A stretch of 23,431 nucleotides of DNA, taken from a bacterium. Its GTDB lineage: Bacteria > UBP14 > UBA6098 > 4484-93. Under the pieces are notes generated by a model. It did not search any database. It had not been told where the DNA came from and was given only the letters and a program-made list of their open reading frames with translations. The stretch spans positions 1 to 23,431 of the forward strand of contig JAGGUN010000044.1 of assembly GCA_021158465.1 (NCBI GenBank), given 5' to 3'. Made by a program: the position numbers and the translations under genes. Position 1 is the stretch's first letter. Each line of letters starts with the position of its first letter. Shown one piece after another: positions 2,015 to 7,666 of this stretch.

Positions 2015-3694
2015 ATGCCAGAGCATATCATTCATGCACCGCGGGGGAATAAACTTTCCTGCAAGGGTTGGCATCAGGAGGCTGCAATGCGTATGCTTAT
2101 GAACAATCTCGACCCTGATGTCGCCGAGGACACCGATAACCTCATCGTCTATGGTGGCACGGGCAAGGCTGTCCGAAATTGGGACTGCTACGAGGCTATC
2201 ATCCGCACATTGAAAGAGCTCGAGAACGATGAAACACTGCTCGTTCAATCGGGCAAGCCGGTCGGTGTGTTCAAGACGAGCGAATGGGTGCCGAGAGTTA
2301 TTATTGCCAACTCGAACCTTGTTCCACACTGGGCAAGCTGGGACTATTTCAACGAGCTCGACCGCAAGGGCTTGATTATGTATGGTCAGATGACCGCCGG
2401 TAGCTGGATTTATATCGGCACGCAGGGAATTCTTCAGGGGACTTATGAGACATTCGCCGCCGCTGGACGCAAGAGGTTCGGCACGGATGACCTTAGAGGG
2501 CATCTCATCGTTTCCGGTGGTTGCGGTGCAATGTCAGGTGCGCAGCCGCTCGCCGCTACGATGAACAATGCAACATATCTCGCCGCCGAGGTGCAGAGAC
2601 CCCGAATCGAGAAGCGCATCAGGTCCAGATACCTCGATGAGATAGAAGAAAGTCTGGATGCGGCAATCAATCGAGCGTTAGACTATGCCAAGAGGGGAAT
2701 AGCCAAGAGCATCGTCTGGCACGGTAATGTCGTTGACCTTCTGCAGGCTCTTGTTGATAGGAATATCACCCCTTCGCTTCTCACCGACCAGACATCGGCA
2801 CACGACCCGCTCAACGGTTATGTCCCACAGGGGTTGAGCTATGAGGAGGCAGTTGAGCTCCGTAAGAGAGACCCCGTGGAGTACAAGAAGCGCTCTTTCA
2901 AGACGATGGCAAAGCATATCCGCCTGATGATGACGCTTCAGGAGCGTGGTGCAGAGACGTTTGACTACGGCAATAATCTTCGTGGGAATGCCGTTGCTGG
3001 TGGCTACATAAAGGAGGAAGAGGTTAGGAATCCTGACGGCAGCTGGCGGTATCCTGGTTTCGTGCCGGCATACATAAGACCGCTATTCTGCGAGGGGCAG
3101 GGACCCTTCCGTTGGGCGGCGCTGTCTGGCGACCCAGATGACATTTACCTAATCGATGAGGAACTTATGAAGCTCTTCCCCGAGAAAACTCATCTTCGCC
3201 GCTGGCTGACGCTTGCTCGTGAGCGTGTTGCGTTCCAAGGGTTACCGACAAGAATATGCTGGCTTGGATACGGTGAGCGGGATAAAGCTGGCTTGATGTT
3301 CAATCGTCTGGTGCGTGAGGGCAAGCTCAAGGCTCCGATTGTCATTGGTCGTGACCATCTCGATGGTGGTAGTGTGGCATCGCCGAACCGTGAGACCGAG
3401 GGTATGAAGGATGGCAGCGACGCTATCGCCGATTGGCCACTGCTGAATTTTGCCCTCAATGCAATATCCGGTGCTTCTTGGGTGTCGTTCCATCACGGCG
3501 GAGGAGTGGGTATCGGCTATTCGCTCCACGCCGGGCAGGTAATTGTTGCCGACGGAACGGAGATGATGGATGTTCGCTTGAAGCGGGTATTGACCAACGA
3601 CCCAGGCACAGGAATTATGCGCCACGCCGACGCCGGATATGAAAAGGCAATCGAGTTCGCAAAAAAGTATGGTGTGAAGATACCGATGATATGA
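2015..3694 (+). CDS. hutU: Urocanate hydratase
   Basis: Second enzyme of histidine degradation: NAD+-dependent hydration of urocanate to 4-imidazolone-5-propionate, cytosolic. 559 residues, the usual length. Hallmarks are [52 protein letters not shown], and [14 protein letters not shown] with the conserved Cys at residue 415 (equivalent to Cys410 of the Pseudomonas enzyme). [31 protein letters not shown] and the terminal [10 protein letters not shown] follow. The dinucleotide-binding loop reads [14 protein letters not shown] instead of the commoner GLGGMGGAQPLA. I chose the ATG at 2015 because AGGAGG lies 5 bp before it; a GTG at 1988 is in frame but lacks a ribosome site. No hutH, hutI or hutG lies nearby. 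Its last 23 codons recur downstream at 4330. Confidence 0.97.
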
Positions 3695-3706
3695 CAGAAA
3701 AATCTG
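3621..3706 (+). repeat. Direct repeat, copy A (hutU 3' end)
   Basis: The last 24 codons of hutU plus 12 bp beyond its stop. It matches 4330-4415 without gaps; I count 12 mismatches in 86 bp (86% identity). Repeat spacing is 709 bp and the hicBA pair lies between the copies. Confidence 0.9.
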
Positions 3707-3735
3707 TTGTAATTTTGCGTCTAAGGAGTATATTT

Positions 3736-3849
3736 GATGGTGTGCAATATGAGAGGTATTTATAACTACGAGAGAAATTGCCCTTGATGAGAAGGCTATG
3801 GACGAGCTAAAACAACCTATCCGCCGGACGATACGGGTAATCTTGTGAG
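3736..3849 (+). other. Short eroded-looking coding stretch before hicB
   Basis: AAGGAG followed by an ATG at 3736 opens a 16-codon frame that ends in TGA. The neighbouring frame then stays open (ITTREIALDEKAMDELKQ...) to a TGA at 3847-3849 that overlaps the hicB ribosome site. This could be a frameshifted gene of about 40 codons or chance. I do not recognise either part. Confidence 0.2.
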
Positions 3850-3857
3850 GAGGCGAA

Positions 3858-4088
3858 GTGCGAGATACTATTCAGTGCATTATCTACAAGGGAGAGGAGT
3901 ATTATGTTGCCGAATGCCTCGATTTCCCGGTTGTGACGCAGGGTAAGACCCTCGATGAGGCTGTTGCAAATCTTGAAGAAGCTATTGCACTTCATCTTGA
4001 GGGAAAAAACCTGAACGAACTGGGGTTTGTTTCCTCGCCGAGGCTGGAGATAAGAATCGAGGCGGAAAAAATTCCTGATGTCTCATAG
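3858..4088 (+). CDS. hicB: HicB-family antitoxin, minimal form (locus 1)
   Basis: 76 residues starting at a GTG with AGGAGG (3848-3853) just upstream. The central block YYVAECLDFPVVTQGKTLDE followed by an EAI..HLE helix is the HicB/UPF0150 partial RNase-H-like fold that sits on the toxin. There is no C-terminal ribbon-helix-helix or HTH domain, so this antitoxin is unlikely to repress its own promoter by itself. It precedes the toxin gene and overlaps it by 11 bp, which implies translational coupling. The antitoxin-first order is the reverse of E. coli hicAB but common for the short form. The pair lies between two copies of the hutU 3' end. Confidence 0.9.
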   Translation: MRDTIQCIIYKGEEYYVAECLDFPVVTQGKTLDEAVANLEEAIALHLEGKNLNELGFVSSPRLEIRIEAEKIPDVS

Positions 4089-4323
4089 GCTGCGCAGGTT
4101 ATCGGGTTGGGAGATTGTCCAGATACTGAAGAAATTCGGTTTCAGTGTTGTTAGGCAGCATGGGAGTCATATCAAGCTAAGGAGAATTGGCGAAGGCTCA
4201 CAGCAGACCATTACAATACCTCTTCATAAGGAGCTCGATACTGGCACGCTCCGCGCAATCATCCGGCAAGCGAGCAGGTTCATTCCGTTTGAAGAGCTCA
4301 GAAAAGTATTCTGGATAGATTAA
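4078..4323 (+). CDS. hicA: HicA-family mRNA interferase toxin (locus 1)
   Basis: 81 residues with the double-stranded-RNA-binding-like HicA fold: an N-terminal GWEIVQILKKFGFSVVRQ helix-strand, then the catalytic GSH (HGSHIKLRR), then IPLHKELDTGTLRAIIRQAS. HicA toxins cleave mRNA using the His of the GSH motif and are neutralised by HicB. All key residues are present, so the toxin should be active. Its ATG lies within the last codons of hicB (11-bp overlap). The stop codon is only 6 bp before the second hutU-tail repeat (4330), so the cassette ends right at the repeat border. Confidence 0.92.
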   Translation: MSHRLRRLSGWEIVQILKKFGFSVVRQHGSHIKLRRIGEGSQQTITIPLHKELDTGTLRAIIRQASRFIPFEELRKVFWID

Positions 4324-4329
4324 TCGCTT

Positions 4330-4415
4330 GCCACGCCGACGCGGGATATGAAAAGGCGATTAGGTTCGCAATAAGGTATGGCGTGAAGATACCGAGGATA
4401 TGATAGAGAAATCCG
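4330..4415 (+). repeat. Direct repeat, copy B (displaced hutU 3' end)
   Basis: Encodes in frame [18 protein letters not shown] and a TGA; by hand 19 of the last 23 HutU residues are identical. It has no start codon or upstream part of hutU, so it is a gene-end fragment. The 12 differences from copy A change E, K, K and M to R, I, R and R. It has thus drifted, or it came from a related hutU. Confidence 0.9.
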
Positions 4416-4471
4416 GAGCCTCGATAACAAATAGCTGGTTTTTTCCTTGTATTATGAGATTTTTCGGGTAA

Positions 4472-4477
4472 TATAAT
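4472..4477 (+). promoter_or_regulatory. Putative -10 element for the secreted-protein gene
   Basis: A perfect TATAAT about 70 bp upstream of the ATG at 4545. The only -35 candidate, TTGTAT at 4447-4452, is weak and spaced 19 bp. It lies between the repeat and the gene, as a promoter for a gene cut off from hutU should. Confidence 0.4.
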
Positions 4478-4544
4478 CATGTGCATGAGGTTGCTAAGGA
4501 TGAAAGTTGTTAAACCCAAAACCTTATTTTTAAGGAGGACACTA

Positions 4545-5213
4545 ATGAAAAGGGCGATTCTATCCTTTCTGGTTCTGTTTCTGTTTGTCGGTTCACTTTT
4601 TGCCATTCAGATTAACATCCGCCGCCTGCCAGGTGGACCGCCTGTTTGCTATGAGATTGAGGTTATCCACGATGGCGAGCCGCCAGACCCCATTACCGAT
4701 TTTCATTTTGATGTCTCGATGCCCTGTCAGATTGTTGAGGCAGGAGGTCCCGAGGGATGGGAGCTTCGATACGCTTTGCCCAACTCGTTCGTCGAGATGG
4801 ATGCTGCAGGAGAAGGCTCTGAGATACCAGCTGGTGAAACCGGGACATTTATTGTCTGTGTCGATGGCGAGTGCGAAGATGCCACATACAGGCTCTATCT
4901 GACGAGTGGAGGAGCTGTCATACCTGGCACGGAGCGAAGCGGACCACTGGGAGGTCTGAGTGTGGACAGCAGAGAGTCCACTGAATATTTTTCCCTCAAT
5001 ATTTCCCCCAATCCTTTCAATTCTGCTTGCTGGATTATTGCTCCAGCGGATGCAACAATAGAGATATTCGATTTGCAGGGTAGGATGGTTGCTCGGTTGC
5101 CAGAGGGGAAAAGTATGTGGCAGCCTGATGGGCGGCTTGGCGGCGGGATATACCTCGTGAGGGCGACGAAAGAGGGATGCACGAAAATAAAGAGAGTTAT
5201 ATATCTGAAATAG
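4545..5213 (+). CDS. Secreted protein with C-terminal sorting/FlgD-Ig-like domain
   Basis: 222 residues. The ATG at 4545 has AGGAGG 6 bp upstream and opens a clear signal peptide (MKRAILSFLVLFLFVGSLFA, cleavage likely after A20). The in-frame start 22 codons earlier would bury the signal and has no ribosome site. Residues about 21-135 are a beta-rich module of unknown family containing three Cys. From about residue 150 comes a module beginning FSLNISPNPFN, then IEIFDLQGRMVARLP, GGIYLVRAT and KRVIYLK at the very end. That is the pattern of the type A sorting domain of the type IX secretion system and of the related FlgD Ig-like fold. The protein is therefore probably exported and perhaps surface-attached. 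A protein with the same C-terminus is encoded at 23243-23431. Confidence 0.85.
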   Translation: MKRAILSFLVLFLFVGSLFAIQINIRRLPGGPPVCYEIEVIHDGEPPDPITDFHFDVSMPCQIVEAGGPEGWELRYALPNSFVEMDAAGEGSEIPAGETGTFIVCVDGECEDATYRLYLTSGGAVIPGTERSGPLGGLSVDSRESTEYFSLNISPNPFNSACWIIAPADATIEIFDLQGRMVARLPEGKSMWQPDGRLGGGIYLVRATKEGCTKIKRVIYLK

Positions 5214-7248: not shown

Positions 7249-7470
7249 ATGGGCAAGTATAAATATACCATAGTGATAGAACAGGATGAGGATGGAATGT
7301 ATATCGCTTCCTGTCCTGCCTTGCAGGGGTGCTATACTCAGGGAGAAACATTTGAGGAAGCTGTGAACAATATTAAAGATGCGATGAGGCTTCATATAGA
7401 GGCGAGGAACTCCCTCGGTGAGCGAATCCCTGTTGAGAGGGTGGTCGAAGAGGTGGAAATAGATGTCTAA
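7249..7470 (+). CDS. hicB: HicB-family antitoxin, minimal form (locus 2)
   Basis: 73 residues: YTIVIEQDEDGMYIASCPALQGCYTQGETFEEAVNNI... is a textbook HicB/UPF0150 core. The C-terminus, VERVVEEVEIDV, is a strand that pairs with the toxin in known structures. As in locus 1 there is no DNA-binding domain. The ATG is supported by AGGGGG 5 bp upstream. It overlaps the hicA start by 8 bp. Its sequence differs clearly from the locus-1 HicB, so the two loci are not a recent duplication. Confidence 0.93.
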   Translation: MGKYKYTIVIEQDEDGMYIASCPALQGCYTQGETFEEAVNNIKDAMRLHIEARNSLGERIPVERVVEEVEIDV

Positions 7471-7666
7471 GCTAATGCCTGTGAAGCCACGGGAGATAAC
7501 TGCTGTTCTTGAGAAGCTGGGTTTTATTCTTATCAGGCAGAGTGGAAGCCACGCCGTGTATCGCCACCCGGATGGAAGATGGTCTTCACTGGTATCCTTA
7601 CCCATTCCGGAGAATTTGGACGGAAGATTGCGAAGATATATATTTAACTCCATAAGGAGCAAATAG
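7463..7666 (+). CDS. hicA: HicA-family mRNA interferase toxin (locus 2)
   Basis: 67 residues; the catalytic GSH is intact (RQSGSHAVYRHPDGRW) after the KPREITAVLEKLGF helix-strand. The second HicA motif, usually P-x-H before the C-terminal helix and present as IPLHKE in locus 1, reads LPIPENLDG here. A His that is commonly conserved is therefore replaced by Pro, and the last helix is shortened (LRRYIFNSIRSK). The toxin may be weakened or of a divergent subtype. Its TAG at 7664-7666 is followed after one base by the ATG of the lipoprotein gene, so three genes form one transcription unit. Confidence 0.88.
   Translation: MSKLMPVKPREITAVLEKLGFILIRQSGSHAVYRHPDGRWSSLVSLPIPENLDGRLRRYIFNSIRSK

Follow-up and report, generated by a model that had tools for sequence, protein, structure and literature searches.

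A hicBA toxin-antitoxin cassette between direct repeats of the hutU 3' end, with possible insertion by general host recombination

The window, i.e. the whole stretch of 23,431 nucleotides that was analysed, carries a recombinase-free hicBA toxin-antitoxin (TA) cassette. We put the probability that general host recombination placed it at the hutU 3' end at roughly one half (0.52). Comparison with related loci suggests that TA pairs move as cassettes which lack an integrase of their own and sometimes form arrays. All the genomes compared (designated G000 for the genome of the window, G003, G004 and so on for its relatives) are draft assemblies.

Results

The locus consists of the following features:

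2015..3694, + strand: hutU (urocanate hydratase), the target gene; Pfam Urocanase N, Rossmann and C; TIGR01228, E 2e-271
3621..3706, + strand: copy of the repeated gene end that is joined to hutU, covering the last 23 codons, the stop and 12 bp; 86 bp, 12 mismatches against 4330-4415
3707..3857, + strand: cassette leader, the hutU-hicB interval, defined from the sequence
3858..4088, + strand: putative HicB-type antitoxin, 76 aa; position before hicA, sub-threshold Pfam DUF7387, similar proteins preceding hicA at hutU in G007 and G004
4078..4323, + strand: HicA toxin, 81 aa, with an 11-bp overlap with hicB; PF07927, E 1.2e-18, above cut-off
4330..4415, + strand: displaced copy of the hutU 3' end; 86-bp alignment to 3621-3706

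The initial annotation had reported an 86-bp repeat of the hutU end around hicBA, with 12 mismatches and no gaps, and its coordinates are correct to the base; the homology ends sharply on both sides. The second copy begins 6 bp past the hicA stop (4323), codes for 19 of the 23 terminal HutU residues and the TGA stop, and contains nothing of hutU upstream, as had also been described. A repeat search in the window recovered the same pair (84 nt, 87%, spacing 709), and the 28-base core of the repeat is present at both sites and nowhere else in the window, 0 occurrences being expected from shuffled sequence. In the 2.04-Mb genome G000, the repeat matches these two places only.

HutU and HicA of the window are firmly identified, the former clearly being a urocanate hydratase, with an alternative ORF start possible at 1988. 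The genes hicB and hicA are the sole genes of the 709-bp unit, and the integrase typical of an element residing in a gene 3' end is absent from it. The putative HicB matches Pfam DUF7387 below the cut-off and has no NCBIfam match; its probable identity follows from its place and from its similarity to HicB-like proteins at other loci. The leader (3707-3857) is, by inspection, not common to the other family-A cassettes.

A scan of 409 kb of G000 revealed no other gene-end-bounded cassette, so that cases like that of the window are rare in this genome. A second hicBA pair (HicB_lk_antitox and HicA) lies at 7249-7666 of the window, about 3 kb away and after a membrane-protein gene, and is without flanking direct repeats. 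The third hicA-like gene of this genome (G000:C51, ~2338-2484; L180), which has close kin in most class genomes in the HicA tree, is located closely downstream of a repeat-rich stretch with a period of ~156 bp.

A HutU search over 61 genomes gave extra matches to the last 25-40 HutU residues, a few hundred bases behind hutU, in G000, G004, G007, G008 and G015, which belong to one class and to several genera and families. In G004, five displaced tails follow hutU, together with a HEPN-like gene (assigned by eye, Pfam being uninformative) and four different hicBA pairs, and in G007 hutU is followed by two different hicBA pairs with two displaced tails; G000, G008 and G015 also hold displaced tails, with one hicBA at hutU of G008 and a toxin-antitoxin pair in hicA-hicB order at that of G015. 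The copies match the attached tails over 41 to 119 bp and start about 30-120 nt before the stop. Their borders are sharp and differ in every cassette, and a fixed att core was rejected for this variation. In G010, hutU is followed by hicBA, and a tail copy was not found there. The protein sequences behind hutU indicate a methyltransferase-like gene in G003 and an HNH-like gene in G011, while hutU of G005 is directly followed by the neighbour gene, with no cassette.

A hicA gene is present within 2.5 kb downstream of hutU in 6 of the 10 class genomes as against none of the 41 hutU loci outside the class (Fisher p 1e-5); hutU as a hotspot in all bacteria is thus rejected. The possibility raised in the initial annotation, that the second tail belongs to an old full hutU paralogue degraded in place, is excluded in practice, since no copy extends upstream of the last ~120 bp of hutU; G000 has no further hutU match, and it is only the gene end that is ever duplicated.

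Some further observations were made at the hutU loci. In G003 (L040, hutU-oriented 2908-4624, reverse strand of the locus) hutU is immediately followed by the methyltransferase-like gene and by a second gene that possibly encodes a nuclease, without a tail copy, and hutU may be a wider defence hotspot in the class. In the G004 array, a similar leader follows the tail copy in three unrelated hicBA pairs (L036, 3880-3920, 4955-4998 and 5445-5485), so that the repeated module looks like tail plus leader. A short ORF of G008 (L034, 3020-3054) ends like the last 8 HutU residues (DVKIPMMK), and this end may be one more displaced tail, joined to the remnant of another gene.

According to the HicA tree of 68 sequences, hutU has been hit repeatedly: the label 'at hutU' changes 7 times on it, and at least 4 of these changes are forced by well-supported branches. 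The displaced tails share 90-98% identity with the resident hutU in G004 and 98% in G015, whereas hutU of different families of the class is only about 64-74% identical in the last 42 nt. Tails so much closer to the resident gene speak against a single ancient array, unless their similarity is maintained by gene conversion.

The hutU end of G008 is informative about which copy is native. The attached hutU of this genome is 84-86% identical to family members until the last 42 nt, where identity drops to 50%, while the displaced tail is 81-88% identical to the family over those 42 nt. This indicates that the displaced copy is the native one and that the functional end came with the cassette. The pattern is that predicted for recombination with incoming DNA, and the reverse of decay after self-duplication. 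A donor-derived attached end is clear in G008 only, the signal in the other genomes being weak or equivocal; the tails of G015, which are 98% alike, would also be explained by simple duplication. The cassette mobility proposed in the initial annotation is thus borne out, as relatives hold non-identical, independent cassettes at the same place and the attached end of G008 is foreign while its displaced end is native.

The same arrangement was observed away from hutU. Sixty other hicA loci of the class were fetched, and the 54 usable ones were subjected to one uniform test for direct repeats not more than 1.6 kb apart around hicA. Such repeats bracketed hicA in 21 of the 54, as compared to 0/25 response-regulator loci, 3/120 random positions in response-regulator loci, 11/214 random positions near hicA and 3/37 hicA loci in two other classes (Fisher p 1e-3 to 1e-9 for the excess over these sets). 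Repeat flanking as a property of hicA everywhere is not supported, given the last of these counts. PIN toxins were repeat-flanked in 1 of 11 loci, at a T9SS-type gene tail whose motif is itself repeated, which makes the evidence weak.

The flanking direct repeats are 26-123 bp in length and variable, as in insertion with long target duplication. They correspond to the 3' ends of upstream genes for an aldehyde dehydrogenase (G013), a 418-aa gene (G004) and a 451-aa gene (G012), and to the 5' starts of downstream genes for a 587-aa iron-sulfur protein (G011) and a glycosyltransferase (G004). Two 3' ends of T9SS-type genes in G005 also serve as repeats, a weaker case as the tail motif is itself repeated; this caution applies to three loci (L126, L132 and L223). 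In every classified gene-end case, the cassette has the same orientation as the gene. Of the repeat-flanked hicA loci, roughly one in two has dispersed intergenic repeats or unassigned sequence at its borders in place of recognised gene ends; L147, L157 and L159 are among several loci with dispersed intergenic repeats and were not counted as gene-end cases. At these three, the dispersed repeats are GC-rich and about 40-120 bp long; in G004 and G007 they lie on either side of hicBA and of other genes.

Arrays and presence/absence pairs were evident at several genes. At the glycosyltransferase of G004, MNT-HepT, HicBA and a ParE-type pair lie in a row, with a copy of the first ~40 bases of the gene after each. 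The corresponding locus of G007, a genome of the same genus, holds MNT-HepT and the ParE-type pair without HicBA, so that the two genomes differ by the clean presence or absence of one HicBA cassette and one gene-start repeat. The proposal to look for related loci with and without the cassette was sound, relatives being decisive here, and both kinds exist: a related genome with a single target copy and no insert is available at this otherwise matching array and at hutU of G005, in both instances outside the window's own genus. Behind the aldehyde dehydrogenase, the same hicBA is accompanied by a tail copy in G013 and by none in G004, and hicBA is absent in G011 and G007. When 387 kb of G004 was scanned, leaving aside repeats within one ORF, the repeat-bounded units with a gene end or start were found mostly to hold TA genes, and NYN-domain proteins were found between similar repeats elsewhere. 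Overall, the cassette cargo comprises HicBA, MNT-HepT, ParE-type toxins and NYN-domain proteins; it is of the TA kind and not restriction-modification genes, and no recombinase was seen in the cassettes read.

Discussion

Insertion by general host recombination would begin with the entry into the cell of a fragment joining a hutU end to hicBA. DNA uptake is plausible in the class, as ComEC is encoded in 13 of its 17 genomes. The ends of the fragment might then be trimmed and ligated into a small circle, which would integrate through one crossover in the hutU tail; alternatively, homology would anchor the hutU side and an illegitimate joint would be formed on the other. By either route, hutU would keep a complete, partly donor-derived end, and the recipient's original end, truncated at a random position, would come to lie beyond the toxin gene. 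The addiction module would resist loss, and through ordinary recombination between the new direct repeats further cassettes could be gained, lost or stacked, giving arrays. The same process at gene starts would yield the mirror image.

Both routes have precedents. In E. coli, fragments with a lacZ end form circles that integrate by a RecA-dependent single crossover, with gene-end duplications of 109-950 bp (PMC3240628), and one-sided capture has been proposed for the formation of T6SS effector-immunity arrays in Vibrio (PMC5361080). For the present cassettes we infer the source of the DNA, the circle or one-sided intermediate and the dependence on RecA. No donor molecule or circle was found, and the hutU-hicB leaders differ between genomes with the same hicBA family, a conserved anchored side not being seen. 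Further points against host recombination are that RecA would have to act on short homologies (26-120 bp, mismatched by up to 15%), that later deletion or gene conversion could have blurred the borders, and that recognised gene ends bound only about half of the repeat-flanked hicA loci. Homologous capture from a relative is the best fit among the three options offered in the initial annotation.

A different origin of the repeats, which we regard as rather doubtful, is that TA modules insert by a process resembling transposition or involving break repair, in which 30-120 bp of the target become duplicated, both copies being originally the recipient's own. The long target duplications reported in PMC3874152 and PMC3031569 vary in size and measure on the order of 100 bp, as do the repeats observed here. 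Such a process would account for the unrelated targets, for the fact that both starts and ends of genes are hit, and for the near-identical copies of G015; the methyltransferase fragment behind the aldehyde dehydrogenase of G007 and the methyltransferase-like gene behind hutU of G003 also agree with it. However, G008 has a foreign functional tail attached and a conserved non-functional tail displaced, opposite to decay after self-duplication, and the classified cassettes point the same way as the target gene, which random insertion without selection would not give.

It is unlikely that the arrays descend vertically from a class ancestor with hutU, several hicBA cassettes and their tail copies, modified by differential loss and border erosion. 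The recurrence of the same hicBA families at hutU across families of the class (tree groups G007_2/G004_1/G008 and G004_2/G010) would be expected from such descent; the high identity of displaced tails to their resident hutU would not, gene conversion apart, and neither would the different cassette order and borders of G004 and G007 nor the location changes forced on the HicA tree. Also unlikely is a capture system that resembles integrons and is unrelated to them, in which a trans-acting enzyme or competence-linked pathway would prefer joining TA cassettes to host gene ends or starts, with the gene ends acting as reusable attachment repeats.

Site-specific integration by a tyrosine or serine recombinase acting in trans appears very improbable; the hutU end would then be the attachment site, and the 709-bp unit a minimal or deleted element. 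It would explain why the gene end is restored at one border and pushed out at the other, and the repeated use of one gene. The copy starts, however, differ from cassette to cassette, the unrelated targets have no evident common core, and gene starts are hit too; together with the lack of anything recombinase-like in any cassette read, these sharp but variable borders argue against an attachment site. The initial annotation had considered a mobile cassette with a hutU-tail attachment site, of which the mobile cassette displacing a gene end is supported and the attachment site, in the integrase sense, is not. An assembly artefact or chance similarity is hardly credible, even with draft metagenome-assembled genomes, as in any one genome the copies diverge by 2-15%, genomes that were assembled separately show the same pattern, 0 chance matches are expected and the controls are clean.

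How small TA modules move without a recombinase is an old open question. The class offers many cassettes with readable insertion scars, stacks at one gene and with/without pairs, which make the rules of the borders and the origin of the donor testable. If general recombination at gene ends suffices, TA modules would spread with the homology of their neighbours, and this would explain why the same toxin family recurs beside the same gene in distant relatives.

In chromosomal integrons, TA cassettes form arrays at one fixed position, are bounded by attC sites and come and go as whole units. The arrays of small TA cassettes described here and their unit-wise gain and loss are similar, but the repeats are the end of the neighbouring gene rather than attC, and arrays occur at several unrelated genes. 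Elements that integrate into gene 3' ends restore the gene end and displace the native one, a likeness shared by the present cassettes, which differ in being units of 0.5-1 kb with no integrase, with variable borders and with gene starts as additional targets.

Homology-facilitated illegitimate recombination and single-crossover capture (PMC3240628; PMC5361080) share with these cassettes one-sided homology, a free joint, partial duplication of a gene end and successive insertions giving arrays beside one gene. Those cases are laboratory events or effector-immunity replacements, whereas the present cassettes add intact TA modules and leave the target gene whole.

A literature search, confined largely to openly accessible papers, gave no direct match for TA modules moving by gene-end duplication. 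As far as the literature so covered goes, TA cassettes that lie between duplicated gene ends and form stacked arrays appear to be a new form of insertion with long target duplication. The latter is known for restriction-modification genes (Nobusato 2000; Furuta 2010), as outlined in PMC3031569, PMC3874152 and PMC1643837. There, as here, a small addiction-type gene set is bounded by long, variable repeats of the target, on the order of 100 bp in size, and a transposase is lacking; the cargo there is restriction-modification genes, with Helicobacter pylori as the example, and here TA modules. The present cassettes further differ in that the repeats are often gene ends or starts, the cassettes stack in arrays and one attached end is foreign.
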